Below are positions 28,380 through 58,012 of a DNA stretch of 64,000 nucleotides, piece by piece (within the stretch, counting starts at the first letter, position 1; every line of letters begins with the position of its first letter). This DNA comes from Tetraselmis striata (lineage: Eukaryota > Chlorophyta > Chlorodendrophyceae > Chlorodendrales > Chlorodendraceae), in assembly GCA_006384855.1 (NCBI GenBank), contig VCJN01003033.1, positions 18,501 to 82,500 of the forward strand, read 5' to 3'. The position numbers were made by a program, and so were the translations under genes. The notes under the pieces are model-generated. The model saw nothing but the letters and a program-made list of their open reading frames with translations. It made no database searches and was not told where the DNA came from.

Positions 28380-29054
28380 TCTTACATCAGTGGTTTGAAA
28401 TGTGCGCATTGAAAGCAGAACTAAAAGCAATTGTGAAAGGTTACCAGCAAAAGAGAGATATAATCATGAAACCAAGTGTCAAGTAGGCAAAGGAGCCAAG
28501 AACCAAGGAAGAGCCATGAGAACCAGGACGTAACCAATAAGTTGCCAAGAAACCAAAGGGTGTAGGGAAACTTACAATGAAAGCCAAGGAACCACAAGAA
28601 AAAAACCCGAAAGGGAAACAGGAAACCAATGGGGACCACCGCCCAGGGGTGAGCCATCGGCCGCGGTGAGTGCGCTTGCAACAATGACCCGGGTCATAGC
28701 AACACATGCTGACGAGCGACGCGACGCGGGCGCAGGAGCACCGTCACGTGCCGCGCGCGCCGCCGCGACCCCGCCAAGAACGTTGTCTGCATCTGCCATG
28801 TTGATGAGCAAGGAGAAACTGCGGCGCCACGCAAACAAGAGCTGGCCGATTTTCTGGCCAGTGTGCGTGTGGCTAGCTTTCGCGAGCTCCACCAAGAAGG
28901 CCTCAACGTGCGATGCCAGCGAGCGAGCCAAACTCGGAGACGGCGAAAGGAACAAAGCGAAGCATGCCGGCGGCGTTTCGGACACCCTCGTCATGCTTTT
29001 GGATTTTGTGGCGCTCTGCGGCCCGAAATGCACTCGTTGGATCCGAGCTTGACA
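28380..29054 (-). mobile_element. LINE family C, 3' fragment (uninterrupted copy)
   Basis: This segment is the inverted counterpart of 45.86-46.389 kb plus 57.938-58.01 kb. On the minus strand it contains the coding block EAFLVELAKASHTH and the shared 3' untranslated sequence. The two copies diverge abruptly just after GGATCCGAGCTTGACA. The important stretch reads, on the minus strand, TTTTGCTGGTAACCTTTCAC without interruption; in the other copy an 11.5-kb transposon splits this site. It therefore serves as an empty-site reference. A short nested inverted repeat lies at its left coding edge (GACATAATGA at 29051-29060 and its complement at 29115-29124). Confidence 0.75.
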
Positions 29055-29138
29055 TAATGATCATGGATTCGAGCATGATCATTTATTATCTTGTGCTCGC
29101 TAGTAAGGATTATGTCATTATGTCGCGACGCAGATGAC

Positions 29139-32434: not shown

Positions 32435-34340
32435 ATGGCGCTGCTCGCCCCTCCTGCCCCAGCCACACAGCAGCTCCCGGGCCTTGACGGCTTCCAGCTG
32501 CCCGAGGCGGTGTGTTACGTCTCCACCGCGGAGAGCATCGACGCTGCGGTGACGCAGCACTTCAGCGGCGTGGCCCTGGTGGGCTTCGACATCGAGTGGC
32601 GCCCTAATTTTGCTGCCGGGCAGGACAACGCCAGCGCTGTGGTGCAGCTCGCCACGGAGAGCGCGTGCCTGGTGGCTCATGTGGCACACGCCAGGGTGCG
32701 CCCGACGTGCTGATGCCTCACCCCACCTGCCTTCCTCTAGGGACAGATGTCACCCACGTATGCCGCCCCAGTTGCCTTCAACTAATCAGGGATCCGGCCA
32801 AATTTCAATATCGCCGCTGTCGATCCCATCGCTGTACTATCCATACCCAGGCATTAGAGGGCGGTGGCAAGATCTTGAGAACTTCAGCACCATAGCATAC
32901 CCGTACCCTGCGAGTGTGCATGGGGTAGCCAAATGGAGCCGCTGAAAAACATACACCCGCCGACATTCCTTCCCAGTCCTATACGTATTGTTTACATCGT
33001 GATCCGATACATAAGTGCACATAAGATATCTCTGCAGATAAAATGTTGCAAGTGTTTCTACACGGATGCCCCAGTTTCCCCCTCCCTCCTCCCTCCTACT
33101 TATGTGCCTTCTGGCATGCGCAAGTACCCCCCCCCCCCCCCCCCCCCCACACACACACACAATTTCCACCAGGAGGCACCCACCCCACTCCTCTCTATAA
33201 TACTACAGCATATGCCTTCAAGCGCTCGCCCTTCCCTGAGACAGACCTTGCCTGCCCCTTGGCCACAGGACCCCGCTACCGGGACTGGCCCCTACCTCCC
33301 GCCTGAGCTGCAGCGGCTGCTCGCTGACCCATGCGTCCTCAAGTGCGGCGTCTCTATAGCCAGCGACCTCGACAAGCTGTCGTGCGACCTGGCCGTGCCA
33401 GGCTGGCCGCCTCAGTCCGCCGTGGGCTACGTGGACCTGGGCTTGGTGGCCTGGGCGCACGACCTGCCGGCGGCGGGGCTCAAGTCCCTGGCGGCGCTGT
33501 TTGGCCATTGCCTGGAGAAATCCAAGAGCGTGGCCATGAGCAACTGGGAGGCGGCCACGCTCAGCGCGAAGCAGGTCCACTACGCCGCGCAGGACGCCTA
33601 CGCTGCGGTCTGGGTGGCGGCCCAGATGCACAGGTGGGCCTCGCTGGATGCGGAGCGTACAGCGCATTACCCCTACCCCTTTCTAACACCTTATACCCAA
33701 TGCAACTCCCAGGCGCTGCGCGGAGGACGCGGCTTCCGAAGCGCCGGTGCCGGGCCTCGTCCAGTGGCTCGCCCCCTTCTCCAACCTGCGAGACAAGCCC
33801 TCCCTGGCGGATGCAGCCCCCCGGCTGCCGCTGGGCGCTGCCACCAAGGGTGTCATCCAGCGCTGGGTGGCCATGGGTGAGGAGCGCCGGCAGGCACGCA
33901 AGCAGCGCGACGCGGCCAAGGCCGCGGCCAGGGATGCGCGGCGGCTGTGCCCCGACTGGGCTGCGGCGGGGGCATGCGCTTACGGCGACAGCTGCCGCTA
34001 CGCGCACTCCCCCGAGGCCGTGGCTGTGCCGCCAGTGTCGATTGACAGGGGCAGACAGGGCCGCCCTGGGCGACGAGGCAGCGGCAGGGGTGGGGGCGGG
34101 GCGGGGCGCAGTGGACGCCCATCTGGGGAGTGCTGGGCGTGGTCGGCCCCGGGGGGCTGCGCGCGTGGGGACAGCTGCCGCTTCCTGCACGCGGGCCACG
34201 GGCGCGGGGGGTCGCTGCCAGAGAGCCTCGGTGCGTTTGCGACCGGGGGCCAGGCGCAGGCAGCGCCATGCTGGGACTGGGCACGCGGGCACTGCCGCTT
34301 TGGAGACGCGTGCAGGTATGCGCACCATGAGCGCGCCTGA
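32435..34340 (+). CDS. WRN-type 3'-5' exonuclease fused to three CCCH zinc fingers
   Basis: The proposed gene has three exons: 32435-32695, 33269-33633 and 33713-34340. Both introns are GT-AG, all phases agree, and the product is 417 residues. Residues 40-200 form a DEDDy exonuclease domain: motif I VGFDIEW (D52, E54), motif II CGVSIASDLDKL (D120), motif III YAAQDAY (Y192, D196). This is the fold of the Werner-helicase exonuclease and plant WRN-like exonucleases, which remove nucleotides from 3' ends of DNA or RNA. The last exon encodes three CCCH fingers: CPDWAAAGACAYGDSCRYAH and CWAWSAPGGCARGDSCRFLH (both CX8CX5CX3H), then CWDWARGHCRFGDACRYAH (CX7CX5CX3H). Such fingers usually bind RNA, so an RNA-processing exonuclease is a reasonable inference. 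A glycine/arginine-rich linker separates fingers one and two. Intron 1 (573 bp) carries 22 C followed by an AC repeat. The start ATG at 32435 is the first that gives a normal domain; no helicase domain is present. Confidence 0.85.
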
Positions 34341-38148: not shown

Positions 38149-39927
38149 CTATGACAAAGGCGGCACGATCTGAAGGAAGCCATTGAGGCGCTCTGCCTGT
38201 GCCGCATCTTCGGGCGGAGGGAACAATGGGTCCACGCACCGCTGCACCACCTCCTCGATCATGCGGGGCAACATTTCCTGCTTACAGCGCCGACAGGTCC
38301 CGGTCAGCACTGGCCGCTACCATCACATGTGCGGGGCTTCAGGCAGTGTTGGGATAGCATCAAGAATCAAGTGGTAGATGCAGAAGCTGGGAGGGGTTGA
38401 GCAAGCACCTGAAGGTACTTGCCCTTGCGGAACAGGGCAGGGCTGGTGTTGACCTCAATGAGGTACGCGCGGCCAGCCTCATCAAGCATGAAGTCAATGC
38501 CAAAGAGCTCAAAGCAGTACTCGAGCCGCATGGGGTTCATCTTGGGGATGACATGGTCAAAGAGTGTGGCGAGGCAGTCCACCAGCTGCGGGAACACTTT
38601 GCCCTTCATGTCCACCGCATGGTTTACGGCTACCTGGTGGGTGGGAGCGCACGGCAACGCCTACGGTTACGGCATGCTCCAAGCGCACAGCATGCGCGAT
38701 GCCTGAACTCAACACATGTTGCGAGGGCAAACAGCTCCTCCCCGCACCTCAAAGTCCTCGAATGATAGCTTGTTGGCATCTTCAAACTTGCCAAAGTCCT
38801 CGTGCTTCTTCTGGTAGGCGTCGTTGGTGAGATGGATGTACTTGTCCTCGAGGTTTTCGAGCTTATACTCAAAGCATGTCGTCCGGATGTAGCCTTCCTG
38901 GTACATGTACACCCGCTTGTCGGGGCCCACCAGCGCATAGGCACGGATGTCAAACTTGCGGCCGGTGATCAGCAGCGGCCGTTCAATGTACTTTTGCACA
39001 ACCCAGTTGCTCCCGCTGCGCTGCTTCGCTAGGTGGCTGAGGATGTCCTTCTGGCTGTCAAAGATCTCAATGCCCCGTCCTCGATTCATGAATCCAGGCT
39101 TGACTAGCCAGACCTTGCCCTGCCAATAGATAATGAACAATTGCTTAGGCTGGCCACATGCGGCGTGCAACATATCGCCTAGAATTAATGCTGAGCCACG
39201 CTTGCCAGCCTGCTGCCGCACCTCCGGCTCCTCAAGCCTCTGCATTGCAGCCTTCAGCTGGCTCACCTCCCTGCGGGCGTCCACGGCATATTCATTGAGG
39301 GACAGGACTGGGTGACGCCTATCGCATCGTCCCCCGAGTCATGGTCGGGCCCTGCTCCCTGGCTGTTGCCTCACCTGGCAGGGATGGACTTGCCACCACT
39401 GAGCGTGAGTGTGTACGGCACCCAGGGCAATGCACTCTTGCTGGCACGCGCAATGGCAGACAGATTCGCCGCCAGACCTGTCTTGGTGCAAATCTCCTTA
39501 TTGCCCTGAATTCGGTTCACAATCTGCCGGGGGGTATCCTGGCCTACATGCGTCCCACATGTGCCACCATACAGAGCGAAAGTCTCAGCGCACCTGGTTG
39601 CATGTCCGTCATTCTGCTCCCCCCCACCCTCCCCCCCCCCTCCACACCCTCATGTATGATCATGTATGGACAAATCCGCACGCCAGAGGGGCAAGGATTG
39701 ATACCTTGTGCAGGCCACGCCGGAATCTTCTGCCCATTTGCCCCCCACCACAGGTGACGCGTTTGCCCCTCTCCGCACTCCGCCCACCAAGGCCGGCTGG
39801 CAAACACGTCGCGTATCATCATGGCCTCGTTGCCGTTCGGGATGGTGTACTTGTAGGGAGGCTTGGCTTTCCCGCGCGGAGCACCGCCCTCCTGTACACA
39901 TACCCAGCGACTGAGCGTTGGCCCCAC
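38149..39927 (-). CDS. Tubulin tyrosine ligase-like (TTLL) enzyme
   Basis: Five exons can be placed with matching phases and GT-AG introns: about 39891-39705, 39543-39375, 39318-38748, 38633-38409 and 38277-38149 (stop). Introns are only 161, 56, 114 and 131 bases. In order they give an N-terminal piece with YTIPNGNEAMMIRDVF, then RQIVNRIQGNKEICTKTGLA, then the ATP-grasp core with VWLVKPGFMNRGRGIEIF (ATP-binding lysine), VVQKYIERPLLITGRKFDIR and YIHLTNDAYQKKHEDFGKFE, then FELFGIDFMLDEAGRAYLIE followed by VNTSP (metal-binding acidic residues and asparagine). The last exon is EMLPRMIEEVVQRCVDPLFP. TTLL enzymes ligate tyrosine, glutamate or glycine to tubulin or other proteins, mostly in cilia and basal bodies; I cannot tell which activity this one has. 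An acceptor directly before 39891 shows that at least one further exon lies upstream. Confidence 0.88.
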
Positions 39928-40679: not shown

Positions 40680-43346
40680 CTAAAAGCGGCCCGCATCCCG
40701 CATAAGGCGGGATGGATGAGTGATGCGCACACGGTTCAGAGTCCGGGCCACGCGAGCACGTGTGTGTGTAGGTGATCCTCGGACGTGCTGTGCAGCTTCA
40801 GCAACGGGATGGGAGACGAATCTGCGCCGTCTGATGAGGCAGCGAGCACGCTCTCGAGCGGCCACCAAGCTCAGGACCCCGAGGAAATCTCTTGCGAGCA
40901 AGGCCTCCTGGTGAGCCCGGGTGATGCACCGAGTGCCCCGCGATGAGAGGGCACCCCGGTCCGCAGCCAAGCATGCGATACCACGCACTGTGCGGTGCAC
41001 CCCCTTGCTCACCTCACCCACTGTGCCGAAGACCATGCACGTGTACTCCGACATATCCAGGATGTCTCGAAGAGGACCCTTCTGTCCGGGCTCTGTGTTG
41101 TGCCACGCCGCGTCCCGCGCAGCCAACCCCCGTTGTATGTCGCCCAACAGGGAGCGCTCAAACCGATCCACAACTGTGGCCCGGGGCACTGAAGTGTACT
41201 TGACCCCGTACCGCATAGTCTTGAACTCTAGCAGCGTGGACTTCAAGCTCCGGGGATCATAGCTCCCGGTCACGACGTTGAACGCCGGAAGGGAGAGCTC
41301 TGCGTCCGGCACTAGGTCCTTGAGTTCATCCCGGGGTACGGTGTTGCCGAGAGGCACTGCCTGCTGGAACAAGTCATCCACCTCCCGCCGTACCGCGATA
41401 CCTAGGTCGTGAACACAATGATCGCGGAAGGCATCTGCGATAGCGTCGTGCTGTACACGCCAGTGAGCGTCTCCAGGCGCCGGGAGGTTCCTGAGCGCGT
41501 CGCCGTATAGATCAACAATGACGGGGTTGTGCTCCGTCGAGGGCAGAATAATCTGGCACCCAACCACCGGGGCCAAGCACGGGCTAGGCAGAAAGAAGTA
41601 CCCGGCAGCGACCTCCCGCAGCTCATGCGGAGTCATGGCTGTCCGCGCGGTGGGGATGGCCACTGTCCACATGCATGACGCCGCGTCGAGCTGGTTGAAC
41701 GAGATCCGTTCCCTACATGTGGCAGGGAGAGCGCACACCTCATTTCGAAGCCGAGAGTTGTTGGCCTGGTCTAGAAATGCCGTCAGCTCCTTTTGCGAGC
41801 CCGACGCAGCCTCCACTTCCCGCTCCATCTGGCGTGCATCTACGTCGCCGAGATGGCCAGCAGTAGCCGCTTGGAGGCGGCCCCACGCCTCGCGCATCTC
41901 CGCGGCGTAGCTGTCCGACCCATGAGCATCGTTGAGGAAGTGGTCATACTGGCGGGCGGAAGAATGTGCGTTGAAGCTGCCTCGGCCAAGTACGGACCCG
42001 AGCTGTGGGTCGAAGAAACCAGGGGTGGGGGTGTTGGTGCCGGAGTTCCTAGTCAGGAACCTTGGGAGGATGGCGTTCATGCAGCCGATGAAGGCGGCAT
42101 CACAAACGGTAGCCATGCGGCGGATGCCAGCTCCCTTCAATCGAGTGGGGAGGTGAAGCCTGCTGCGCGCTCTGGCCACTGCATCCTCGCTCAAGGTAGC
42201 CACCTCCGCTGCCATGGGGTCGGGGTCGTGCAAAAGCTCCGCCAAGAAATCGGTGACCACCGGATTGGTGTCGGTGCCGTACGTGGAGGGATCAAAAGAG
42301 ACCCCTAGCACCCGTTCGACCGCCGCGAGGATGGTGGCATCCACCGCCTCCGCAAAGGCCTCCACCTCGGACGGAAGACAATTGCGGAGCCAATACCCCG
42401 CCTTGTGTTGCATGCAATGCTTGAGCAGGGCCCATGCGTGGTGATGCAAGGCGTGGGTGTACCGACGGCTGGGCTTGGCAGACAGAAGCTTGCTCAGGCT
42501 AGCGTCCACCTCCTCTCGTAGCTCCTCCGCCTTGCCGCGCATGTACGCCTGCACATACTCTGGCGATCCGAGCGGCACGTTGAGGACCGCGATGCCGTGA
42601 TGGCCATCTAGCTCTTGCCACTCGATGTCGGCCGGAGCCTCACGCCGCGCCGCCTCCATGTCTGCGCTGTACGCCTGCATCTTGTCGAAGCGCACCTCAA
42701 GCCCCACGGACGCCTTGATGGACGTGCGGAAGGCGTGAAGAGCCGGCCAAACGTGCTCCGGAAGGCCCACCAAAATTCCATCGTCGGCGTTGAAGCGCGC
42801 CGCCCCGTCATTGACCTCCAACGTGGTATCACACTGCTGCACTTCGGGGTGAATCGCGACGCAAAAGGAAGTCGTGGCCAAAGGTGCGCCCTGTTGCACG
42901 CCGTCCTCCGACCGCAGAGGGGCGGACCGGTCGTCCACGACCAGATACGAGTCCGTGGAGAGGGAGGCTAGGAGCGCAGGGATGACAGGGTGTAGTGGAG
43001 AGCAATCGATGTGGCGCTGGATGATGGTGCGGCGCCATGCTTCGTTGTAAGCGTTGCGAAGGTCTGTGTGGACGATGACGGCACGTGGGCCAAGCTTCTC
43101 GGCGATGAGCCGGACGCCGTGGGTGAGCACAGAGTCGCCCGCGGGCATGCCAACGCCGAGCTGAGATGGAGCGAGCACCGACACGTATGCCTCCTTCATG
43201 TTGTCAACCACTGCCCGCTCCGCTGCGCGCCGCTCCGCCTCCCCGACTGCCACAGGCCGCACGTCCGGGGCCCTCCCCTCGCCTAGCTTCTTGACAGGTG
43301 CCACGAGCCTAGCAGGGCAGGCGACCTTGGAGGTACATGGAGGCAA
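40680..43346 (-). CDS. LINE B reverse transcriptase and C-terminal domain
   Basis: An 888-residue frame. The reverse transcriptase carries the catalytic aspartate block VIVHTDLRNAYNEAW (D95), the SEDGVQQGAPLATTSF block (residues 146-161) and the catalytic FNADD (185-189, where most families have F/Y-A-D-D). It starts with the family motif PVAVGEAERRAAERAVV (31-47). The C-terminal half (about 560-880) contains IVDLYGDALRNLPAPGDAHW and MVFGTVGEVSKGVHRTVRGI. It recurs in the truncated copy at 20.2-21.1 kb and is probably a family-specific nuclease or nucleic-acid-binding region, which I cannot name. It reverse-transcribes the element's RNA at the target site. The first codons overlap the end of the preceding frame, so the methionine at 43346 is probably not a natural start. 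Confidence 0.85.
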   Translation of the reverse strand: MPPCTSKVACPARLVAPVKKLGEGRAPDVRPVAVGEAERRAAERAVVDNMKEAYVSVLAPSQLGVGMPAGDSVLTHGVRLIAEKLGPRAVIVHTDLRNAYNEAWRRTIIQRHIDCSPLHPVIPALLASLSTDSYLVVDDRSAPLRSEDGVQQGAPLATTSFCVAIHPEVQQCDTTLEVNDGAARFNADDGILVGLPEHVWPALHAFRTSIKASVGLEVRFDKMQAYSADMEAARREAPADIEWQELDGHHGIAVLNVPLGSPEYVQAYMRGKAEELREEVDASLSKLLSAKPSRRYTHALHHHAWALLKHCMQHKAGYWLRNCLPSEVEAFAEAVDATILAAVERVLGVSFDPSTYGTDTNPVVTDFLAELLHDPDPMAAEVATLSEDAVARARSRLHLPTRLKGAGIRRMATVCDAAFIGCMNAILPRFLTRNSGTNTPTPGFFDPQLGSVLGRGSFNAHSSARQYDHFLNDAHGSDSYAAEMREAWGRLQAATAGHLGDVDARQMEREVEAASGSQKELTAFLDQANNSRLRNEVCALPATCRERISFNQLDAASCMWTVAIPTARTAMTPHELREVAAGYFFLPSPCLAPVVGCQIILPSTEHNPVIVDLYGDALRNLPAPGDAHWRVQHDAIADAFRDHCVHDLGIAVRREVDDLFQQAVPLGNTVPRDELKDLVPDAELSLPAFNVVTGSYDPRSLKSTLLEFKTMRYGVKYTSVPRATVVDRFERSLLGDIQRGLAARDAAWHNTEPGQKGPLRDILDMSEYTCMVFGTVGEVSKGVHRTVRGIACLAADRGALSSRGTRCITRAHQEALLARDFLGVLSLVAARERARCLIRRRRFVSHPVAEAAQHVRGSPTHTRARVARTLNRVRITHPSRLMRDAGRF

Positions 43347-45129
43347 CCTCCGACATGGCGCGGACCGCCGCGGGCCCCGACGCCGGGGCGTATTCGCCCA
43401 CCAAGCAGCGGAGATACTCGTTGCGCATGCCTGAGGGCCCCGCCACCACGTGCTGCTTGAGTTGCTGGTACGGCACGCGCATGTCCACCGTCAGGGCGGC
43501 CTCGTCCACCGGAATGTCATACGCGGCGTCTGGGATCGGGTGGCTACGGGACGGGTGCTTGTCGCGCAGCTGGGCGAGGATAGCAGGATCGGACAAGTCG
43601 CCCATACCCTTAGAAGATAGTCGGCCCGCCGCTCGGGAGAGCTCTCCGTCCTCCACCAACGCCACAACGGTGTCCGCGGTGCCCGCGAGCAGCGCCGCAA
43701 AGAGATCGGCGTCCGTCCGACGCTGGCGGGCATGTCCGGCGTAGAACGCCTCAGTGCGCGCGTCGTCCCATGAGCGCACGAGCTCGGTCATGCGCCTCTC
43801 CGCGAAAGCGCGGCAGCGCCACGCCAAGGCTTGTAGCCGCCGCCGTCCGCCTCGTCTCGGGGCCCTAAGCAACAATTGTGGCAACAGGTACTTCCACTTA
43901 AGCGCCCTATCCAACACCACGGGGTCATTGGCCTCCATCGCCGCCACCACCCGCTCATTCACGCAGCGTTGTGCCTCTGCCCACGCTTCTTGAAAGTCAA
44001 TCGGCACTGCCGTCTCCATGGACATCTCCGCCGGCATGTGCACCATGTCCACGTCGGAGAGGTGGTCCACCGCACCCCACCCCACCTCGTCGCCGGCTGG
44101 AGATGGGCGAGTAGGGGGGGGCGGATACCGAGCCCGCGAGGCCTGGCCACCGGGGTGGCCGGCCGGTGCACCCACCTCTGGCGGCGTGGGAGCAACAACC
44201 GGGGGCGCTGCGACGCCCCGGAACGCAGCGACGGACGGCAGTGCGGGCGACGGCAGCACCGACGATTGTCCAGCTCCACCGGCGCGGCGCGCCCCCCGAC
44301 GGCGGTGCCGCTCGGCCAACACGGCGCGCGCCTTGGCTAGCCACGCGGCGGCGACCTCGGTGAAAGCCAACACATCGGCCGGGTGGTGCCTGACGCGGGC
44401 GGGCTGGAGCGACCTGGCTGCGGCGTCAATCCTCGGCGCCCACGCGGCGCCCGCGGCGACGCCAGCGACTGAAAGCGCGTCGGCGACTGTCCAAGCCGCT
44501 GCCGGTGCTACGCCCCGCCGCGCCGGCCCACTGTCGTGTAGCCTGGAATGCAGGCGGGCGAGAGCATCGAGGCCGGTGAGCGCTATGCCGCGGTTGCCGC
44601 CGCGCGGCCGCGGCTGGGGCCGCACGGAGACTTCCTGGCCGGTCGGAGCGCCATCGTGATCGCGCTGTGACGCGCCGGGCCCCGAAATACTGCTGAAAGT
44701 ACTGCGGCGAGGCGACGACACAGGCGAGGCAGCGCGCGCGCCGGTCGTACCTGCCGCGCCCGTCGCGGACTCGGGACTCGACGACCGGCTCACCGCCTGG
44801 GCGTACGTGGGAGCCGGCGGGGCGGCAGTCGCGGGCGGGCTCGGCCTTGGCTGGGTGGCGTCGGGTGCACTGCCGGTGGACGGTGTTGCCGCGGGCGACG
44901 CTCGCGCCGCACGCGATGCGCCGGGGCTGCCTGATATACTGGACGATGTACTGGGGGGCGGCGGCGACCCGGGGTCAACGGCGCGTTCTGCCGCACCATC
45001 GGCGGAAGGCGCAGACATCGCGCGGCGCACCGCCGGATACAAGCGACCCGCCACAGCCCGGGCATAACGGTGACGTCGCGTGGGAGGGGGTTGAGGGCAG
45101 CTACGCGATCTAGGCGGCGGGTAAGGCAT
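43309..45129 (-). CDS. LINE B N-terminal region
   Basis: A 606-residue frame. The first 350 residues are low-complexity, rich in alanine, proline and serine, and the rest is helical with YLLPQLLLRAPRRGGRRRLQ. It ends with LKQHVVAGPSGMRNEYLRCL, which is the first conserved block of the reverse transcriptase (the GPSGM motif). The protein therefore continues into the next frame, and the shift between the two lies near 43316. The N-terminal part may correspond to a gag-like or RNA-binding region; no zinc knuckle is seen. Confidence 0.7.
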   Translation of the reverse strand: MPYPPPRSRSCPQPPPTRRHRYARAVAGRLYPAVRRAMSAPSADGAAERAVDPGSPPPPSTSSSISGSPGASRAARASPAATPSTGSAPDATQPRPSPPATAAPPAPTYAQAVSRSSSPESATGAAGTTGARAASPVSSPRRSTFSSISGPGASQRDHDGAPTGQEVSVRPQPRPRGGNRGIALTGLDALARLHSRLHDSGPARRGVAPAAAWTVADALSVAGVAAGAAWAPRIDAAARSLQPARVRHHPADVLAFTEVAAAWLAKARAVLAERHRRRGARRAGGAGQSSVLPSPALPSVAAFRGVAAPPVVAPTPPEVGAPAGHPGGQASRARYPPPPTRPSPAGDEVGWGAVDHLSDVDMVHMPAEMSMETAVPIDFQEAWAEAQRCVNERVVAAMEANDPVVLDRALKWKYLLPQLLLRAPRRGGRRRLQALAWRCRAFAERRMTELVRSWDDARTEAFYAGHARQRRTDADLFAALLAGTADTVVALVEDGELSRAAGRLSSKGMGDLSDPAILAQLRDKHPSRSHPIPDAAYDIPVDEAALTVDMRVPYQQLKQHVVAGPSGMRNEYLRCLVGEYAPASGPAAVRAMSEVASMYLQGRLPC

Positions 45130-45299
45130 GGCGACACACGGCCCCGCAGCGCCTCCGGGGCCGCTGGGTGGGTGGGGCCGGTGGGACTGTATGCCATGCC
45201 TGTAGATACAGTTAGCAGACGTATAGCGGCTTCGCCGCTATGAGAAAAAGAGGCGGGGCCCATATCCCTGTATATTCTTGTAGGTATACTGCTAAACGG

Positions 45300-46389
45300 T
45301 ATACCGCTTCCGAGGCCGCCTCTTACGCGCTGCGACAACGTTCCTGGTGACTGATCCTCCAAATGAGGGTCGCCTTGGTGAAGTCCGTGAGCGTTCCCCT
45401 GAGTACTACGATTCCATGTTCCGCGTTGCCGCTTGCCGCCCATTTGGCCTTCCGGCGGCTCCTGTCCTCTCCCTTGGCGAGCCATGCCCTTGTGCTTTTT
45501 GCTCCTTCTCGGTACAAGGTATGCTAGCCCGTTTTGAGGATGCTGGCGTGGATTTCACTCCTTCTACTCGGGCAGTCGTGCACGTTGATCACGTGGCACG
45601 TTGCTCTGGGGGCGACTCCAATCACGCCGCCGCACACGAGTGGGCGGCTCATGGCCTTTCCGACGTTTGCCACGACGTGAAGTCCGCACTGGGTGTGGGT
45701 GTCCAGATCCTCACGGACCCGTCGGTGCTTGTTTCTCTTCCGGAGGGCAGCGACGGCCGGCCCGCCCGGCCGATGTTGGGCTTTTTGGGTATGGTGGTAT
45801 CTGCGGGAACACGGTTAGTTGTTGTCGATACCACCATTGCCCCTATCCTCGGCATGTCAAGCTCGGATCCAACGACTGCATTCCGGGCCACAGAGCGCCA
45901 CAAAATCGAAAAGAAACACGAGGGTGTCCGAAACGCCGCCGGCATGCTTCGCTTTGTTCCTTTGGCCGTTTCCGAATTTGGCTCGCTGGCCCCGCACGCT
46001 GAGGCCTTCTTGGTGGAGCTCGCGAAAGCTAGCCACACACACTGGCCAAAAAATCGGCCACCTCTTGTGTGCGTGGCGCCGCCGTTTCTCCTTGCTCATC
46101 AACATGGCACATGCAGACAACGTTCTTGGCGGGGTCGCGGCCGCGCGCGCAGCACATGATGGTGCTCCTGCGCCTGCGTCGCGTCGCGTCGCTCGTCGGC
46201 CGGTGTTGCTATGACCCGGGTCATTGGCTGCAAGCGTCCCCGCTGCGGCTCATAGCCTACCCCGGGGCGGTGGTCCCTTTGGTTCCTAGCTACTTGGCGA
46301 CTTCGTGGTTCTTTTGGCTCCTCCTTGGTTCTTGGCTCCCTGGCCTCTTGCTCGACCTTGGTTTCAGGCTTATATCTCTCTTTTGCTGG
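45300..46389 (+). mobile_element. LINE family C, part left of the transposon insertion
   Basis: A frame open from 45347 to 46159 encodes the C-terminal end of a non-LTR retroelement protein: a cysteine/histidine cluster (CPCAFCSFSVQG), VVHVDHVARCSGGDSNHAAA, then RPMLGFLGMVVSAG, VVVDTTIAPILG and the block FVPLAVSEFGSLAPHAEAFL. This order is typical of the restriction-like endonuclease tail of such elements. It is 5'-truncated and stops abruptly at CTGG (46386-46389), where the large transposon begins. The rest of the LINE resumes at 57938. Confidence 0.7.
46386..46389. repeat. Target-site duplication, left (CTGG)
   Basis: CTGG directly outside the left inverted repeat. The same four bases stand at 57938-57941, and the uninterrupted LINE C copy has them once. 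Confidence 0.85.
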
Positions 46390-46416
46390 AACAATAATGC
46401 AACCTATTTTGCACCG
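46390..46416 (+). repeat. Left terminal inverted repeat
   Basis: 27 bp beginning AACAATAATGC and continuing AACCTATTTTGCACCG. It matches the inverse complement of 57911-57937 at 24 of 27 positions. Confidence 0.88.
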
Positions 46417-48600
46417 AGGCACGCGGTGCATTGTGGTTAGGTCTAAATTAGGGTTCGGGGGCAGCCAGCTATGATGCTTGGCGGGGGCTTCCTGACGTAG
46501 AGGTAGTACTCATCGTCGTGACGCAGAGAACTGCCCATCTTCATCCTGCAATCCTTGGCCCAAGTCAGGACGTGATAGATGAGGCCCTCATCTTGTTGTT
46601 GTACGGCTGTGATTGCGGATCCAAGTTGCTGGTCCGAGAGGTGAATGAAGAAATGGCACCCATCGAGAGCAGTGTGGACGTCAGAAGATCCAGTCAGGAT
46701 ATTCAACTGCATGCGCGGGGAAAATCGGTAATGGGATAAATGAAAGCACAGTCATCTACGCACCCGGGTTGTGGGGGGTGTCTTGCCTGGCGAAAGCAAA
46801 CACGGCGTTGAAGTCGTCCGTACCCCACGCAACATCCTTCGAGTCCCATGTGTGCGAACCAGCTCCGAAAAGCGCGTCGGCAATGAAGACTGTTGCCTTT
46901 TTTGCTCGAATTGCCGACATGGCGTCCGCGACGGCTTGTTTTGTCGCGGGAGCCTTGAAGTCCCCCTCCACAATGCAAATCTTGCAAAGCTCCGTGTTCA
47001 ACCAGACCTTGTCATCCTTGTCGACCTCATGGCCCTTGGGCATCACCGGAAGTGCCTCGGCCTGTGTGTATTAGAAAACAGATTCTGGTTAATAGCTCAC
47101 AATGAAAATTCAGAAGAGCATTTGTGGTTGCACAAGATCTTAGTTACTTTCATCGATATCCACAGCTCATTAGAAACATTCGGAGCGGAAACCGCGATAA
47201 GCTCCGGCGCACATGCCAGAAGAGCAAACTCTGTGAAGAAGGAGATGACCAAGTCCGGCATCTGATTCTTGATGCGATACGCCTCACTCTTGATGGTGGT
47301 GTTGGTGGCCGCGATATGCTCTCGAACCGGTAGTGGTGTGAGACAATCGGCGGATTTCATGTCCCCCCATCTGGCAGGAGGGGTCAGCAAGACCATCAAA
47401 GGACCGGAGCGATGAGCACCTTTGAACAAATCCTGAAATTGTCTGGGGAAGCCTGTTGGGCCGAGGTCATCAACCTTGGCTCGGAACTTGGTGATGGCGT
47501 CAAGGCGAGCGGCCGCTTGCTCATCCGACACATCGTCTTCCACATCCCATTCGATGATGTGGTCCGAGAGATATTTCCCCCAGTTCCTGGCCGGTTCGTC
47601 CGGCGTCAGCAGTTGGAGTGCCTCTCTGCCCTTTGCCGTGTCAATGGCATTCATGAGCTTGATGCTTGCTCGACGCAAGAGATCGCGAAACCTCCAGGCC
47701 TCAATCATCGCGAGCCACTCCGCGTTGGTGTGCGTAACAGCCATGGGGCCATTGTCGCCGGCATCCTTAATGTCATCCACCAGCTCGTAGAGGCAAGGGG
47801 TCACACTGTCCTCGCCTTTGATGAGCAGTCCAACCACTAGGTACATCTAGCCCACAGGGAGATCCGCGCTGTCGCTCTGCTTGGCAAGAGACGGCTCGTC
47901 TAGCCAGGGCGCATGGTGTCCAAAGCCAACATCCTGGGTCGAAAAACAAACTTCAGTACGGAGAAAGGAATGATAGTATTCCATGTCATTAAGACACTGG
48001 GGTCGGTCACAACTTACCTCCATGAGGGCGACTCGGAAGTGAGCTCTGTCTTTGCCGAAGCCGTACTTCTTGTTATCGAGGATTGCATTGATAGGCTTCT
48101 GAATTGCTTCGTAAACCTTCCTCACTTCCTTCTGGGTGAGTTGCCTGCCGTGATTGAGACGCTCGACTCTATCGAGTTCTTGGTGATAGTACACAAATAG
48201 GTCTCCGAGTTTGGTTTTGGCTTCGTCCCATCCTCAAACCCCGAGGTCCACATGCCGGTAGGCTTCAGAAATCTGCTCAAGGGGCTCACAAACACTGCGC
48301 AAATCATTTGTCAGAATCTAGCAGCATTAACAACACGATAAATTTCCATCATATACGCAGCTTACCGTTGTGGGCGCGAGCAGAGGTCAATCAAATTTGA
48401 GAACTCGCTGCTCTTCTCATCTTTGATGCCGATCTTCTCAAGTTCAACTTCAGACTTCTTGAACTCCTTCACGACTCTGATTTGCGGAAGTGCCCTAAAG
48501 CCGGGGCGAGTTGCATCCTGATCTGCATACAAGCTCTCGAAACATCTGCGAAGGTTCTGCAGAAACAATCGCACCGATTTCAAAATTCCGAACGATTGTA

Positions 48601-48855
48601 CCTCTGATGACAGACCGTTTTGTCCCACTGATGACAGACCGTTTCGTCCCACTGATGACAAACCGTTTCGTCCCATTGATGACAGAACGTTTCGTCCCAC
48701 TGATGACAACCCGTTTCGTCCCGCTGATGACAACCCGTTTCGTCCCACTGATGACAGACCGTTTCGTCCCACTGATGACATATCGTTTCGTCCCACTGAT
48801 GATTGACCGATTCGTCCCACTGATGACAAACCGTTTCGTCCCACCGACAGACATA
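48601..48855 (+). repeat. 24-bp minisatellite array 1
   Basis: About 11 units of a 24-bp repeat with core GTCCCACTGATGACA, lying in an intron of the minus-strand transposon gene. The unit length is a multiple of three, so several frames stay open through it; this is not coding evidence. Confidence 0.9.
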
Positions 48856-51771
48856 TTTTTAGCCCGCTGACGACAGAACGACTTTTGTCACACTTTACGC
48901 CTATTTGCTCCCACGGCCAGCTTAATAATATTTTGGGAGAATGGGTCGCTCACCAGGAGTTTGTGCATGGACGTGTCTCCCACGACGGTGTGACCCGCCT
49001 CGTCGAGCTTCATAGACATGTAGCGGCAGACTTCCGGCGAGAGGCCGATGTACATCTTGTCCGACGTGAGGTGGATGCCTTTTTTGGCTTTGTAGATTTC
49101 CGGATAATTATCTTTCACCATTTTCTTTCACCATGCGCTTCGCCTCCCGTCTGTGGCTGCCGTCGATGTTGGCTTGACGCGCGCCGTGGGCGCCCAGAAA
49201 CATGATGATTACGTCGATCTCTGGCTTGTAGTAACTTGAATCCGCCAACCTCGGCTTCTCCCCGCCTTCGAATGCTGCGACTAGCTCCTTGAAGTTGGCC
49301 ATGGTCAGAGCGAGGGGCTCATACTATTCCCTGAACGTTGAGGTCATACCCTTGGCAACCACTGGAAAGGACACTGAGAAATTCTCGGCGGATAGGGAAG
49401 GGTTCCTCTGAATAACAAATGCAAGAAATGGATGTCAGTAAGTTGCATTGTGTATTGATTTAGATTTGTCTACACATATTTGATCCGGATAGGTACAACA
49501 GGTCGCGATAGGCTTTTACCTTGTAGCTTTGCGCCACCATATTGCAGTCTTGCACCTTTGGGGATCGGGATTCAAATTCCGGCGGCGGAGCGACGAACTT
49601 ATCGGATGGGAAGCTGAAAATGTGAGGCAGCCCCGTATCCTTGACGAGGTTGACTCTGTCGGCGTATAACGTGTTGATGTCGCCACCGTGAGATGTCTTC
49701 ACCTCTGGATCAGCAATCTCGACTCTGAGGTGGCCGTAAGAGATCCAGTCGACGGCACCGGCGTGGTGGAAGCCATTCAAGGCCGGCGGGACGGCAAACG
49801 TGTCGACGTATGGAAGCGCGTTCTTAAAATCCTTGTCAATGTTGGCCAAGTCATCGATGTCAATATGACCAGACGCGAAACCTGTCAGCGCCTGCGACAG
49901 CACATTGCGCTCGACCAAAGTCCATGCGTAGTAAGACTCGAACCGCGGCTGGAAGGAGAGTGGCGGTTGGATCGCGTGGAGTAGCAACCTCTCAAAGCCG
50001 ACATCGATCCTGAACTCCTTGTGCAGTGTCAAGCGATAAGGTTCAAGAGAGATCTGCGGTAACAAGCATAAGAATATTAATACTTATTGATACACGAAAT
50101 TGACACAAATTCAGAGACATTATATAAGCTTTACTCACCCCGTAGTTTCCGGCCGAGTCCAGCTCGACGTTCTTGATCTTTCCGATACACGCGAGAAGTG
50201 GCCCCTTCGGATCATCGAAAAAGTCCTTGCCAGTCAGCAGGCTCGCCTTGTGCAATTCGATGTACAAATAGATCTGTACCTCAGCACTTGTGTTCTTGAA
50301 CCAGTGGATAGTCCAGCTCCTTGAGGTAAAGTCGTTGTAGGAGTCATGTTCTTGGGATCCGTCCCTCTCGTCAAAGAAGTCGTCGTAAGAGGCGACTGTC
50401 ATCAGCTTTGTCTTCCTCTCGGGTCCAACAGTGCCGGTGATGTCGAGAGCTTGCTTACGCTTCTCTGCCGCCCGTTGCCTCTGTTCTTCCTCTGTGCCGA
50501 AGACCTTTTCATCCGTGCACATACTGAGGAATTCAGGAACCCTTCTTCTCGGAGCCTCGACAAGAGATGCTCGAGAACCAGAGGCTCCAGAACCGGACGC
50601 TTGCCCGATAGTCGGCGCTGGAGTCTCGAGCTCGGGCTCCGGCTCCGGTTCAGGCTCCGGGTCAAGCCGAGTGGGCTCATGCTCAGGCTCGGGCTCCGGC
50701 TCGGGTTGAGGCTCCGGTTCATGCTCCGGCTCTCGCTCCATCTGAGTGGGCTCAGTTTCAGGCTCATGCTGAGGCTCGGGCTCGGGCTCAGTGGGCTCTG
50801 TTTCAGGCTCCGGCTCGGGCTCCGGCTCCGGCTCAGTGTGCTCTATTTCAGGCTCTGGCTCTGGCTCGGGCTCCGGCTCGAGCTCAGGCTCCGGCTCTGT
50901 TTCCGGTACTTGAGGCGGGCCTTTAGACAAAGAAGAGCCTTGATTCGGGGAACCTGTAAAGAATGAGTAGAGAGTACTCAACACACCTGCAGTGGGCGTC
51001 ACGATTAACTACTGAACGGTATCGCCATACACCATCAAAGCCAAGCGTGATTTTCTTACCTGGGGATCCCGATTTACCAGCTGCTTCCGACGCGGTTGGT
51101 TGCGCCGATTGACGACATGTTGGAACGTCAGATAACTCACAGACGAGAAATTAATCGAAGGGAGTGAGAAGGCAGGGATTGATACTTTCAGTCACAATTA
51201 CATGGAGTCACAATCGTCTCTGAAACATTTTCTTTTCCCTTGGATTCCTTTGAAGCTTGAGTCGCTACTGGCTCATGTGCGCGTCCTTTCGAACCTTTTT
51301 GAAATCAACACACATGATTTCAAACAATGTCAATATGACACAGTGCACTCACAAAAATCATACGATTGGAGAGGCAAGGACGTGATTGATAGTAAGCTTG
51401 CATGAGCTTTTCGTAATCGATTAGCCTTCGCGCTGTCTGCATTTGAGCATCTGCGAGGACTTGGCCGCTCATGATTTGGGCCCTCAAAAGAGCGGCGGCC
51501 GATCTTTCTCCTTGCGAGTGCGTGCCGTAAGCCGGCACTCTACCTCCTAAAATGCTCGGTTTCCAGCGGGCGATGCCTCAGCGCCCGCTCTAGCTGCAGA
51601 AGCTCAGGCTGCACGGCTCTTCTTCGCCGCCGGCTGCTCGGGCACAGAAGATGACGCCTTGTGTTTTCTCCCGACTCGCGCTCCGAGCGCATCGAATTCT
51701 TTTGCTTTCTCTATTGGTTTTGATGTCCGCTTGGACCTTCGACCCATAAATATCATATTCTGTCAGACCGA

Positions 51772-52150
51772 CTCGTCCCACTGATGACAAACCGTTTCGT
51801 CCCACTGATGACAAACCGTTTCGTCCCACTGATGATATACCTTTTCGTCCCACTGATGACAAACCGTTTCGTCCCACTGATTACAGATCGTTTCGTCCCA
51901 CTGATGACAAACCGTTTCGTCCCATTGATGACATACCGTTTCGTCCCACTGATGACAAACCGTTTCGTCCCACTGATGACATACCGTTTCGTCCCATTGA
52001 TGACAGACCGTTTCGTCCCATTGATGACAAACCGTTTCGTCCCACTGATGACAGACCGTTTCGTCCCACTGATGACAGACCGTTTCGTCCCACTGATGAC
52101 AGACCGTTTCGTCCCACTGATGACAAACCGTTTCGTCCCACTGATGACAG
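51772..52150 (+). repeat. 24-bp minisatellite array 2
   Basis: About 16 units of the same repeat in the same orientation, in the first intron of the minus-strand transposon gene. Confidence 0.92.
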
Positions 52151-53974
52151 AACTATTTCCAATACATTATGTACTGCGGTTTAATAATGTTATGTCTTTA
52201 AGTACTGCGATTCACACTCATATTAAACCACTCCTTACGGCGGAGTACAGGCACAGGGTCCACCTGGCCGCTCTCCACCCCCATCCCCCTCCCACCACCA
52301 ATTAGCATCCTTTCTGAACTTGTCGCAGCTGCCTCGACGGGACGTACTACTACCGTGCATGACCCTGATGCCGCTCCTCTCGTTTGGATTTCTATTCCCA
52401 CTCGTCAGCCTACACCTCGAGCGGTCCTAGATTACACCGCTTCTACAGGGAACCCTAACCGAACTCGCTAGATCTCGCCGCATCACGCGTCGAGCAGGCA
52501 GGCAGCTATTGTACGCGCGCGCAACTCACCTGGGGTGGCGTCGTCCTTGTCTTCCTTGTCCTTGGCAGGCTCGTTCTTCTTCGGCGCCATTCTGGCGGTA
52601 GGTAGGTTGACGCGGTAGATGAGCGGGTTTCTTGGTGGGAAGCGGTGAGGGAGAGGTGGAAATGACGTGATTTATGTCTGACGCCGCTCTGACCCCTGCT
52701 GGACCAACGGCGCGCGTGCGCACACTATAGTGCACCTCGTCGTCGTCATCAGGTTCATGTATTTTGCACCGCGACGAATATACAGAGCTAACTACTGCGA
52801 CTATATATTACTATTACTGGAAGATAAATTATTCCCTACTCGAGAGTCATAACGGTACGAGAGTACAGTGGCATGGCAATAATATTCCTTCATGGGATGA
52901 TATATTCCTTGGATTGGATTCGGGTGTACGTACTAGTATATAACTATTACCGACATACGAAAGAAACACGAAATAATACGGTATTTGAGTCATCAGGTTC
53001 AATTATTTTGACCCGTAGCTGGATATTATGCACCCCGGTCAACGGCCCGTCCGAGAACGGTCATCGGCTGTCAGTCTTCCTCACCACAAATCACAGTCCT
53101 TCACCCCCCCCCCCCCCCCCCCACTCTCCCCACGCTGGAGCATGGCGGCGGTCGAAAGCATGGCCTCTTCTCCAGGATCCGGCGCGTCGGACACTACAGT
53201 TACATTACCGCCGTGTTCGTGCCGCAGCGGGTACTCGTGTGATTGCGACGCGCGTGCGAGTGATCGTAAGGAGCCTGAAAAAAGGAAGTACACGTGGGGC
53301 AAGGGCTCCGATGAGGTCGCCGAAAGCGATAATGGCAAGGTCTCGTCTCTGATCAAGAAGCGCACCTCTCGCGGCTGTATCCGCCTCATGCTCGCCAAGG
53401 AGGCTAGCGAGCAGTCGCCATGCTGTTCGCGGAAGTGCGAGCACAAGCTATACACACAGTGCGGAGAGGCCCTCGTTGATGCCGTGTTGGACCGTGCGTT
53501 GACCGTATACTCTGGCAATCAGAACCGCTCCTTTGACCGGCTCGCTCAGGTTCTCAGGGGTGGCTACGAGTCGGCATCCGACAATTTCGATTACATGTTT
53601 GATCACGGTGGCTACTTGCGCTCTTTCGATCATCGAGGCCCCATCTACACGTGTGGGCGTGCGTGGGAGGCCTTGCATCAGGTCTCGAAACACAGACGTC
53701 TCGTGATCTAGCGGTCGGTGGTGGATAACGAACCCACGTACATCAGGCAGCGCAAGCAATACGAGAGCAGACAAACCGGACCGAGGGAGCATGTGCGTAT
53801 GTTTCTCGAGCACTTCTTCTCAGATGACCTCGGTCACGTCGAGATCATGCCTTTTCATGACGGCAACAGCGAGACCTTCAAGAAGCACCTACCTCCCTGG
53901 ATGACCAAGATTTGCGTCTACTACTACTACAAGTCGTGGGCCGAGGACGACAACGCCATTCTCCGTGGCGAGGC

Positions 53975-54640
53975 CCATTTTGTCCCACTGATGACATACC
54001 GTTTTGTCCCGCTGATGACATACCGATTCGTCCCGCTGATGACAGACTATTTCGTCCCGCTGATGACAGACCGTTTTGTCCCGCTGATGACAAACCGTTT
54101 CGTCCCTCTGACGACAAATCGTTCCGTCCCGCTGACGACAAACCGTTTCGTCCCACTGATGACAAACCGTTTTGTCCCGCTAATTACATACCGTTATGTC
54201 CCGCTGATGACAAACCGTTTCGTCCCGCTGATGACAAACCGTTTTGTCCCGCTGATGACAAACCGTTTCGTCCCACTGACGACAGATCGTTTTGTCCCGC
54301 TGATGACAAACCGTTTCATCCCTTTGTTGACAAACCGTTTCGTCCCGATATCGCCAGAACGTTTAGTCCCACTGATGCCGGACCGATTTCGTCCCACTGA
54401 TGACAGAACGTTTCGCACCGCTCATGGCATACCGTTTCGTCCCACCGACCACAAAACCATTTGTCCCACATAACTGGCCGATATCGTCCCACTGCAGACA
54501 GAACGTTTTGTCCCACTGGTGAGAGACGGTTTTGCCCCACTGATGACATACCGTTTCGTCACACTGATGACAGATTGTTTCGCCTTGCTGATTACAGAAA
54601 TATTCACCCACTATCGATATAATTATTTCGACCCACTTTA
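53975..54640 (+). repeat. 24-bp minisatellite array 3
   Basis: About 25 units, more diverged toward the right end, in the first intron of the putative transposase gene. The right third belongs to the larger duplicated block at 54330-54763. Confidence 0.9.
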
Positions 54641-54763
54641 GACCGAACTTTTTCTGTCTCGGATTATGAGACCTTATTTGTATACCGACCTATTCTGCCC
54701 CTGCCGCTTTATAGATTTGGCTACCGAGAGCGAAGTGAAGCTCGCATCGTTCGACACTTTCCG
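54330..54763 (+). repeat. Duplicated block, copy 1
   Basis: A block of about 430 bases comprising degenerate minisatellite units plus the first 100 or so bases leading into the second exon (LASFDTF). It recurs nearly unchanged at 54988-55423. Confidence 0.8.
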
Positions 54764-54764
54764 C

Positions 54765-55255
54765 CCACTGATGACAAACCGTTTCGTCCCGCTGATGACA
54801 GACCGTTTTGTCCCGCTGATGACAGACCGTTTTGTCCCACTGATGACAAACCGTTTCGTCCCGCTGATGACAAACCGTTTTGTCCCGCTGATGACAAACC
54901 GTTTCGTCGCTTTGATGAGAAACCGTTTCGTCCCACTGACGACATATCGTTTTGTCCCGCTGATGACAAACCGTTTCGTCGCTTTGATGAGAAACCGTTT
55001 CGTCCCGCTATCGCCGGAACGTTTATTCCCACTGATGCCGGACCGATTTCGTCCCACTGATGACATAACGTTTCGCACCGCTTATTACAAACCGTTTCGT
55101 CCCACCGACCACAAATTAAACCATTTGTCCCACATAACTAACCGATATCGTCCCACTGCAGACAGAACGTTTTGTCCCACTAGTGAGAGACGGTTTTGTC
55201 CCACTGACGACATACCGTTTCGTCACACTGATGACAGACCGTTTCGTCTTGCTGA
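54765..55255 (+). repeat. 24-bp minisatellite array 4
   Basis: About 20 units of the same repeat. The part after 54988 is the second copy of the duplicated block. Confidence 0.88.
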
Positions 55256-55423
55256 TTACAGAAATATTCACCCACTATCGATATAATTATTTCGACCCAC
55301 TTTAGATCGAACTTTTATGTCACATTATGAGACCTTATTTGTATACCGACCTATTCTGCCCCTGCCGCTTTATAGATTTGGCTATCGAGAGCGAAGTGAA
55401 GCTCGCATCGTTCGACACTTTCC
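54988..55423 (+). repeat. Duplicated block, copy 2
   Basis: Second copy of the block, offset by about 660 bases. It leads into the intact continuation of the exon (FDTFHRTWKGDFPDV), so this copy carries the functional junction and copy 1 is the extra one. Confidence 0.8.
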
Positions 55424-57045
55424 ACCGGACTTGGAAGGGAGACTTCCCGGATGTCACCACGCCAAAGGTGAAGCGATTCAGCCACTGTCCCATTTGCGCG
55501 GCGGGCAAAGCACTCAAAGACCAAGCTCGCGAGATTTGCACAAAGGACATGACGCCAAAGGAACGTCAAGTGCACCGTCAACATCAGCAGCTCGTGAGGC
55601 GTCAGGTCAGAGCTGAGCAGAAGGTACACCTCGAGAGACTGCGCAAGGAACGAAGGGATCTGAACAACGCCGTCTTCCAGTCGCGCCTTGGCCATGGAAA
55701 CTTCTTCTTCTTCGAAATTGATAGCATGGACTCCGCGAAGACCCTGCTACCTCACTGGGTTCGCATCCCAAAGATTGTGAAGCCCAACATGCTCCTCAAG
55801 TACCACCTCACCTGTGTGAAGTACGACGGATACCGCTCGGACGACATCTACTACTACACCAACACCATCCCCCACGATTCGTCAACGACCTGCACTCTAA
55901 TATGGATCACGATCATGAAGGTGAGCTCGTTAGCCTCCCGATAGATTCGCCGTGGTTGTCCGGTAGCCATGGACTGATGAAATCTGATCTGCGATGCAGG
56001 AAATTCAACGCCGTGGTAGAAAGATTCCGTACATCAGAATCCAGATGGACAACACCGTCAGGGAGAACAAGAATAGGAACGTGGCGGCCCTCTGCAATTG
56101 GCTTGTGTCTATCGGCATCTGCGACGTCATTCATTGGTCTTCTTGCCTGTCGGGCACACTCACGAACGGGTTGACAAGATCTTCAGCCGCATCAGTCTTG
56201 CGCTATCTCGCAGCTCCGCCTACACAATCGAGGCCTTTCTTGACTTGGTGGCGAAGGCATTCTCGCCCACTCCGGAGATTGCTGAGCTCTCATTCTCCCT
56301 CGACTTCTCTGAGTGATTAAGGCCCCATTTCCAAGACCACATTCAGGACATCATTAAGCCGCACAAATTCGAGTTCACCCGTGACGCCGCCGCCGCGTCT
56401 GGCGGCTCGTTGCGCACCGCCTTGTGGTCCAACACACCGCTTTCTGAGCCCGTGCAGATCTTGAAGAGCGCGCCAACGGGGACGCCCGAGATTCGTGCGG
56501 GCCGGCCCCTTTTGTACGCTCTCTGCGACAAAAAGGAGCCCGACGCGGTGAAGGTCCAGAGGTACTTGGATGATTTCAAGAAGGCCAGGTCGTACATCAC
56601 GGACCTGGCGGTCCAGTGGTACTTCTCCCCAGTCGAGCGCGAGAGCTGGAGAATCTGCTCGGTACTTGGATGAGATGCAAACTGCTCCTTCGGCAGCTTT
56701 CTCCGGGTGCTGGCCGCAACGGAAAGAGGAAGTTGACGACTTCTTGCGCGAGCACGGGTAGACCGCGCCCGCCGAGGCACGTCACATGATGGCTACCAAC
56801 GCAGACCTCAACAATGCCGAAGCCGCTCGGGTTGAAGCCGAGGTTCGTGCTCAAGTGCTTGAAGATGACAGCGCCTTCCGGGGAGTTCACGCCGGCGCCA
56901 AGGAGAGGCTTCATAACAACACATCGCCCAGCGATGCAAAGGGCTCGAACCTCGTTGTCATCGACGTCTCCGATGCGAGTCCCATTGTTTGTCATTTCTG
57001 TCCTGTACGGGACAAAACAATTTGGTTCATCTCCCGTGCTTGTTA

Positions 57046-57067
57046 TTTTGTCCCAACTGGGACAAAA
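57046..57067. repeat. Perfect palindrome related to the minisatellite unit
   Basis: TTTTGTCCCA and TGGGACAAAA form 10-base arms around two bases. Similar arms occur at 57721-57738 and near 57003-57016. The minisatellite unit is itself an imperfect TTTGTC ... GACAAA inverted repeat, so the element is studded with one kind of half-site. Confidence 0.65.
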
Positions 57068-57910
57068 ATGGCGTGGCGTCTCGCTCAGGACTAACATAGT
57101 TCGCGGTCTTGGCCATCATTAGGTGCATGAGGAAGACAAGTGCCCTGAAACTCTTGGTGATTGGGAGTCGAGATTCGTCATCGGGCTTGTGAAGTCGCGT
57201 GAGACTACCGAAGACACGTTGACCGTGGCCGTATACGAGCCCTTCCATGCCCATGCAAAGGGCAAACCTCTCATGCCCCTATGGTTGTACGCGCAGACAA
57301 AAGGAGGGAAGAAGCCAGTTGACACAAGCTGGGAGAAGTGCCTGACGCTTCCTTGGAAGCTTGTTGAAGCCGTCTACCTATCGTACGCGAAGGCCATCCA
57401 CGACGCGTCGGGAAGTCGCGAGGTGTTCAACGAGGACGGCACCATGGTCAGAAAGAAGTGGTACGGTAAAAGCGTCCAAGTCGTGAAGACATATTCGCAA
57501 ACTGGGTGGCAAATCAGCCAGCCACGAAACAACTGCGTCCACGTCATGTCAACCACCCCAGCGCAACGTAAACCCGGCGGAGTCGTCAAGTTTATTTAAC
57601 GCAGCCACGAAGAAGGACTTGCTTGAGTTGGGGATGCTCAATGAATAAACTATTAGCAACGTCTTATGGCTAGCTAGCCGGTGGATAAAATCATCATAAT
57701 AAATATTGATTTGCCTCATCTTGTCCCATTTTGGACAAAATGCTCCAAAACCAACATTGGATATGCGTCGCGGCTGGCTTGCATGCTGATGAATGCTGCA
57801 CTGCACCCAAGGTCTACAAACCCAAGCTACATCACCAGTGAGTCTTAAGTACTGATAGTAGACCCGGGAACTAGGGTATAAACAAACCCTACGGTGCAAA
57901 ATGAATTCCA

Positions 57911-57937
57911 CGGTGCAAAATAGGTTAAATTACTGTT
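57911..57937 (-). repeat. Right terminal inverted repeat
   Basis: Read on the minus strand it begins AACAGTAATTT and continues AACCTATTTTGCACCG. A second copy of TTTTGCACCG lies just inside (57890-57899 as complement). Confidence 0.88.
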
Positions 57938-58012
57938 CTGGCAACCTTTCATAGTTGCTGTTAGTTTTCTTTGTAGTGCGCATTTGTGAAAGCCCTAGTG
58001 TAAAAAATAAAC
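57938..58012 (+). mobile_element. LINE family C, part right of the transposon insertion
   Basis: CTGGCAACCTTTCATAGTTG continues the LINE C sequence that stopped at 46389 and matches the 3' end of the copy at 28.4 kb (CTGGTAACCTTTCACAATTG). The first four bases are the right target duplication. Confidence 0.75.

Follow-up and report, generated by a model that had tools for sequence, protein, structure and literature searches.

A large DNA transposon with a DUF7869 gene and a divergent opposite-strand gene, represented by a decayed copy

The segment at 46390-57937 of the 64-kb window (the whole stretch of DNA that we analysed) is one DNA-transposon insertion of 11,548 bp, with terminal inverted repeats (TIRs), a target site duplication (TSD) and an empty site. 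Among large TIR transposons that carry an accessory gene it represents a new family, and the copy found here is decayed. We consider it likely that it descends from a large cut-and-paste transposon in which a DUF7869 protein was the DDE/D transposase, a second protein was accessory and TTTTGCACCG was the bound motif. DUF7869, a domain with no stated function, is tied here to a mobile element with both ends and an empty site, and the catalytic residues that we propose for it make the function of the family testable. The element is likely an additional case of a large eukaryotic transposon with an opposite-strand accessory gene.

Element ends, target duplication and empty site

The first 27 bp of the two ends are identical at 24 positions. 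When 27-bp stretches from the window were paired at random 200,000 times, this number was never reached, and the best pair had 21 identical positions. The left TIR (46390-46416, plus strand) carries TTTTGCACCG. The right TIR (57911-57937, minus strand) is part of a terminal region at 57880-57937 with a second, subterminal TTTTGCACCG at 57892, at a spacing of 19 bp. The termini of the element are AAC..GTT.

A related, uninterrupted copy of the target repeat lies at 28378-29055 on the minus strand and has one CTGG, at 28444-28447. The left flank of the element (45854-46389) aligns with 29055-28444, in reverse, in two pieces with identities of 88% (438 columns) and 79% (120 columns). The counterpart of the right flank (57938-58007) is 28447-28378, with an identity of 73% over 70 bp (E 9e-6). 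Taken alone, the first 100 bp of the right flank score 43, whereas 200 shuffles gave at most 25. The overlap of the two flank alignments is four bases long, and because they share just 28444-28447 (CTGG), the 4-bp duplication is shown directly; its two copies lie at 46386-46389 and 57938-57941. Rejoined with one CTGG, the flanks read ...CTCTCTTTTGCTGG up to the junction and CAACCTTTCA beyond it, and the empty copy reads ...CTCTCTTTTGCTGG and TAACCTTTCA. The duplication is that of one copy, and no further copies of the element occur within the 64-kb window.

These results uphold the proposal of an earlier note on this DNA that a single insertion, with 24/27 TIRs and CTGG flanks, has its pre-insertion site near 28.4 kb. 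The same note had described the element as complete and as interrupting a LINE. Complete it is in having both ends, but it is not intact, as both genes contain stops and frame breaks. The junction with the target is exact, but the match to the presumed LINE is short: the similarity between the target copies is limited to about 0.6 kb to the left and 70 bp to the right of the insertion site, and past about 45.85/29.06 kb no match was found by blastn (1e-10) or in all 24 tblastx rows (1e-15). Since the similarity stops there, we treat the target copies as related repeats and only putatively as members of one LINE family.

The plus-strand DUF7869 gene and its relatives

The transposase-like gene occupies 53142-57596 of the plus strand, with an ATG at 53142 and introns. 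Two of its pieces match Pfam DUF7869 (PF25273) with 38.6 and 66.3 bits, above the curated cut-off of 26 bits, and a third piece, further upstream, reaches only 13.4 bits. The DUF7869 core lies at 55720-56175 and is split by an intron at 55921-55999. The search of plus-strand pieces against Pfam had been suggested in the earlier note, which had read a DUF7869-like protein with acidic blocks from the sequence; the search agrees with that reading, and the blocks are common to the relatives described below.

We read the DUF7869 protein as a DDE/D-type transposase, with the first acid in EIDSMD, the second in QMDN and the third in GHTHERVD. By hand count, the proposed acids are encoded at 55720-55722 (FEIDSMD), 56048-56050 (QMDN) and 56164-56166 or 56173-56175 (GHTHERVD), with about 82 residues from the first to the second and about 40 from the second to the third, also counted by hand. 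Such a series would be consistent with a DDE/D enzyme. Two AlphaFold models of the protein have low confidence (mean pLDDT 38.1 and 39.8); both place a strand-helix-strand-helix succession from DN to past GHTH. A Foldseek search with the first of these models returned nothing at E<=0.001, and a PDB sequence search with the GHTH piece gave no match.

The gene is interrupted by two in-frame stops, TAG at 53709-53711 and TGA at 56314-56316, and by a frame break near 56137. Because of the stops and the frame break it cannot yield a full protein as assembled. Near its 3' end, a stretch at about 56670-57123 is either an intron or damage.

To find relatives, genome contigs were searched for a pattern that combines NKN and VGHTHE/D. 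It occurred at four loci, two of which hold true relatives (L009 and L010); the other two (L007 and L008) are chance matches. Three relative contigs (L009, L015 and L016) belong to a 'Synechococcales' MAG and a 'Flavobacteriaceae' MAG. DUF7869 was found in 1 of 395 and 1 of 386 genomes sampled from the phyla of these two MAGs, and both genomes are these MAGs. DUF7869 is thus not a common bacterial domain. As no other sampled genome has it, we take the three contigs to be eukaryotic contaminants, and they look like contamination of bacterial MAGs.

The alignment of the window's protein with these three relatives recovers the acidic blocks. GHTH..[IV]D..F is invariant in all four sequences, DN precedes GHTH in all four, and D.MD is present in the three that extend far enough upstream. 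For the GHTH exon, 0 of 500 shuffles reached the score of the window's sequence against each of the three relatives. For the DN exon, the score was reached by 0 of 500 shuffles with L009, 9 with L015 and 4 with L016, and for the D.MD exon by 0 of 500 with L015 and 43 with L009, L016 not extending into this region. The alignment with L015 pairs EIDSMD with KVDKMD and adds a C..C pair upstream. MAFFT set the window's D.MD fragment elsewhere, short exon fragments being misplaced in two alignments. The N-terminal and C-terminal parts of the gene showed no match to the relatives above shuffles.

That DUF7869 is cargo, with the minus-strand protein or an enzyme supplied from elsewhere as the transposase, appears to us very improbable. 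The minus-strand protein is free for such a role in having no assigned function, but the acids of DUF7869 are arranged as one would expect in a DDE/D enzyme, and a homologue of the minus-strand protein was not seen on L009, L015 or L016, which are short contigs (best tblastn E 1.8). A joined piece of the minus-strand gene found nothing at E<=1 in either of the DUF7869-bearing MAGs. We favour DUF7869 as the transposase, its mobility having one element as basis, since L009, L015 and L016 are not known as transposons.

On L016, a 2341-aa ORF (2064-9086, minus strand) lies opposite the DUF7869 gene, tail to tail, and has no Pfam match at 0.01. This arrangement hints that large accessory genes at other DUF7869 loci may differ from the one here. 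Comparison did not support this ORF as a homologue of the window's minus-strand gene (in 12 comparisons, the lowest result was reached by 4 of 200 shuffles). We rejected it as a GNAT enzyme, since a 1979-aa part gave E 0.077 and the complete ORF had no match at 0.01.

Searches of viral sequences added no relatives. The minisatellite unit and the TIR DNA had no match in viral contigs, and tblastn against phages found no protein relatives. Candidate protein relatives of three window pieces in viral contigs and of one in genome contigs were not confirmed. Motif patterns occurred at 2 and 4 loci in viral contigs, and from their translations we judged all six to be chance; neither record in the first pair contained DUF7869.

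The opposite-strand gene and named elements

The opposite-strand gene is a real multi-exon gene at 46443-52590 of the minus strand, with an ATG at 52590 and a stop at about 46443, both placed by inspection. Seven introns were tried, and six have GT-AG borders: 50954-51059, 50054-50138, 49408-49519, 48295-48365, 47934-48017 and 47062-47147. The gene has at least these six GT-AG introns, of 71-112 bp. Stop codons interrupt its frame at 49324-49326, 48234-48236 and 47847-47849, and near 49117 the frame breaks, so that it too cannot yield a full protein as assembled. The joined exons give a chain of 545 residues with one stop and, after the frame break and minisatellite array 1, a chain of 512 residues with two stops. 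An acidic EPEP repeat lies close to the start of the protein.

As the earlier note had held, the protein is large and has no credible database match: outside the minisatellite, nothing in Pfam, NCBIfam, PHROGs, PADLOC or PDB exceeded its cut-off. Two matches were set aside as chance. PF21300, at 30.6 bits with a cut-off of 30, falls on translated minisatellite, and a diguanylate cyclase match of the C-terminal piece in NCBIfam (E 5.8e-5) has 21.7 bits against a cut-off of 402. A tblastn comparison of the gene with phages gave only E values of 2-3.

Two regions of the protein carry motifs that we noticed by eye and for which profile tests were negative. The exon at 49118-49407 (minus strand) has a ParB-like DGSHRREA (49141-49164), and the last exons (46446-47061, minus strand) have a series resembling that of N6A/N4C methylases, in which ADALF replaces the catalytic DPPY and which includes W.K.....MGS..R..DE. 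By eye, we likened the latter to WDKGQGGMGSMYRSQHE in a ParB-methylase protein whose source belongs to the same phylum as genome G003.

Sola-1 elements have a TSD of 4 bp, and the 4-bp TSD found here fits Sola1/Sola2. It is a real possibility, to which we give a little less than even weight, that the element is a Sola-1 whose minus-strand gene encodes a ParB-methyltransferase accessory protein of the Sola1-1_Ec32 type. DGSHRREA and W.K.....MGS..R..DE, recognised by eye, stand in the right order for such a protein, but DALF in place of the catalytic DPPY counts against it, and the ParB and methylase readings fail library, profile, pairwise and hhalign tests. Our own ParB-MTase profile met the gene at E 0.037 (1.0 bit), while shuffles gave up to 6.8 bits. 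In pairwise comparison with 35 proteins, two were nearly above shuffles (L067, reached by 1 of 300; L044, by 0 of 100), with the catalytic motifs unpaired. The hhalign scores were 16.9 and 17.3 against shuffle maxima of 26.5 and 22.6, and 11.1 against 19.4.

The layout of the element also speaks for Sola-1. According to the part of PMC12477816 that describes it, Sola1-1_Ec32 of the brown alga Ectocarpus is an element of 21.5 kb with a transposase gene and an opposite-strand gene for a 1104-aa protein with ParB-like and DNA methyltransferase parts, and proteins similar to this accessory are cited there from green and red algal transposons. The present element is likewise a large eukaryotic DNA transposon of more than 10 kb in which a transposase gene, here a putative one, is accompanied on the opposite strand by one candidate accessory gene, about a thousand codons long (same part of PMC12477816). 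It differs in its size (11.5 kb against 21.5 kb), and its accessory has motifs seen by eye only, whereas that of Sola1-1_Ec32 is identified as ParB plus methyltransferase in the same description (PMC12477816). The statement in the earlier note that no described element has this gene pair was too strong, given this layout (PMC12477816, as far as that description goes). We read the minus-strand protein as an accessory factor, perhaps a DNA-binding methylase as in Sola1-1_Ec32. Should DUF7869 prove to be the Sola-1 transposase, the element would be an ordinary new family member.

Other named groups share single features with the element. Sola2 elements of social amoebae, as the relevant section of PMC3627910 presents them, are alike in their 4-bp TSD, short TIRs (12-21 bp in Sola2) and accessory genes. 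Their TSDs are AT-rich (AWWT) in contrast to CTGG, and their accessory is Fanzor1, whereas that of the present element is the minus-strand gene without a family match (PMC3627910, same section). KDZ and Plavaka are likewise eukaryotic DNA transposons with accessory genes, there for DNA modification (PMC12730594, in its account of these groups). In that account, KDZ has a TSD of 7 or 8 bp and Plavaka a TSD of 2-3 bp with TGT or CATCA ends, as opposed to 4 bp and AAC..GTT here, and most members of EnSpm/Chapaev/Transib/Plavaka have 5'-CA..TG-3' termini (PMC12730594).

These differences bear on a further reading, in which DUF7869 elements form a transposase superfamily of their own that is as yet unnamed. 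We think this rather unlikely. The AAC..GTT ends, where most members of the EnSpm-Transib group have CA..TG, and the 4-bp TSD, against 7 or 8 bp in KDZ, agree with it, as does the literature covered, from which most subscription papers fell outside and in which no naming of DUF7869 or PF25273 was found. Pfam names may, however, trail Repbase names, and Repbase and Dfam lay outside the comparison. In its fuller form, which is somewhat less probable still, the unnamed superfamily would have a DUF7869 transposase, 4-bp TSDs and divergent gene pairs, with the second protein marking or binding the element's own DNA.

Academ elements carry an XPG nuclease and a helicase beside the transposase. In the coding pieces scanned, which come from broken genes and leave out 53712-53980 and minisatellite array 3, Pfam gave no nuclease or helicase match, and membership in Academ appears less likely because of this. 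Of the superfamilies that the earlier note had allowed on the strength of the 4-bp TSD, Sola thus remains a candidate and Academ recedes.

Terminal motif, minisatellites and proposed mechanism

The 64 kb contain four exact copies of the motif TTTTGCACCG, all of them inside the element: each TIR has one, a third is subterminal on the right and the fourth lies between the genes. With one mismatch the motif is less exclusive, with 11 occurrences against a mean of 4.6 in shuffles, 1 of 100 of which reaches 11. The region between the divergent genes (52745-53015) contains a 27-bp direct repeat (52745-52771 and 52989-53015, 85% alike), in which the terminal motif TATTTTGCACCG occurs twice, once exactly and once imperfectly.

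In the mechanism that we propose, TTTTGCACCG in the two ends would be the binding site of the DUF7869 transposase, which would excise the element and insert it where the target is cut with a 4-bp stagger; gap repair would then leave CTGG on both sides. Through TTTTGCACCG between the divergent genes, the transposase could also regulate the transcription of both, a putative autoregulation. Since the copy as assembled makes neither full protein, the enzyme would have to come from another copy if this one is still mobile.

The element contains three arrays of one 24-bp minisatellite, all on the plus strand. Array 1 (48604-48844; about 10 copies) separates coding blocks of the minus-strand gene, and array 2 (51773-52149; about 16 copies) is either inside the first part of that gene or upstream of it. 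Array 3 (53978-55262; about 53 copies by TRF) is inside the transposase gene, and a block of about 0.47 kb is duplicated within it at 93% identity. When array 3 is omitted, by eye, the transposase gene becomes colinear with its relative L009, and the array may be an intron. With up to 5 mismatches allowed, the unit TTTCGTCCCACTGATGACARACCG matches at 63 positions, which are all plus-strand and, within the window, confined to the element. Towards the 3' end of the transposase gene, at 56990-57070 and 57720-57745, there are short TTTTGTCCCA and TGGGACAAAA stretches that look, by eye, like parts of the minisatellite unit.

Across the whole window, Rfam gave no match. Elsewhere in it, we found an astacin peptidase (156-1208, minus strand), a tubulin-tyrosine ligase (38709-39338, minus strand) and a 3'-5' exonuclease domain (32879-33880, plus strand); on the basis of these domains and of the spliced genes, the host is a eukaryote. 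A 936-aa ORF (40680-43490, minus strand) near the target repeat has a weak RVT_1 match below cut-off and is overlapped by a 642-aa ORF (43309-45237, minus strand) with no Pfam match at 0.01. A Copia-type reverse transcriptase (RVT_2, E 7.6e-38) is encoded at 10105-11673 on the minus strand.
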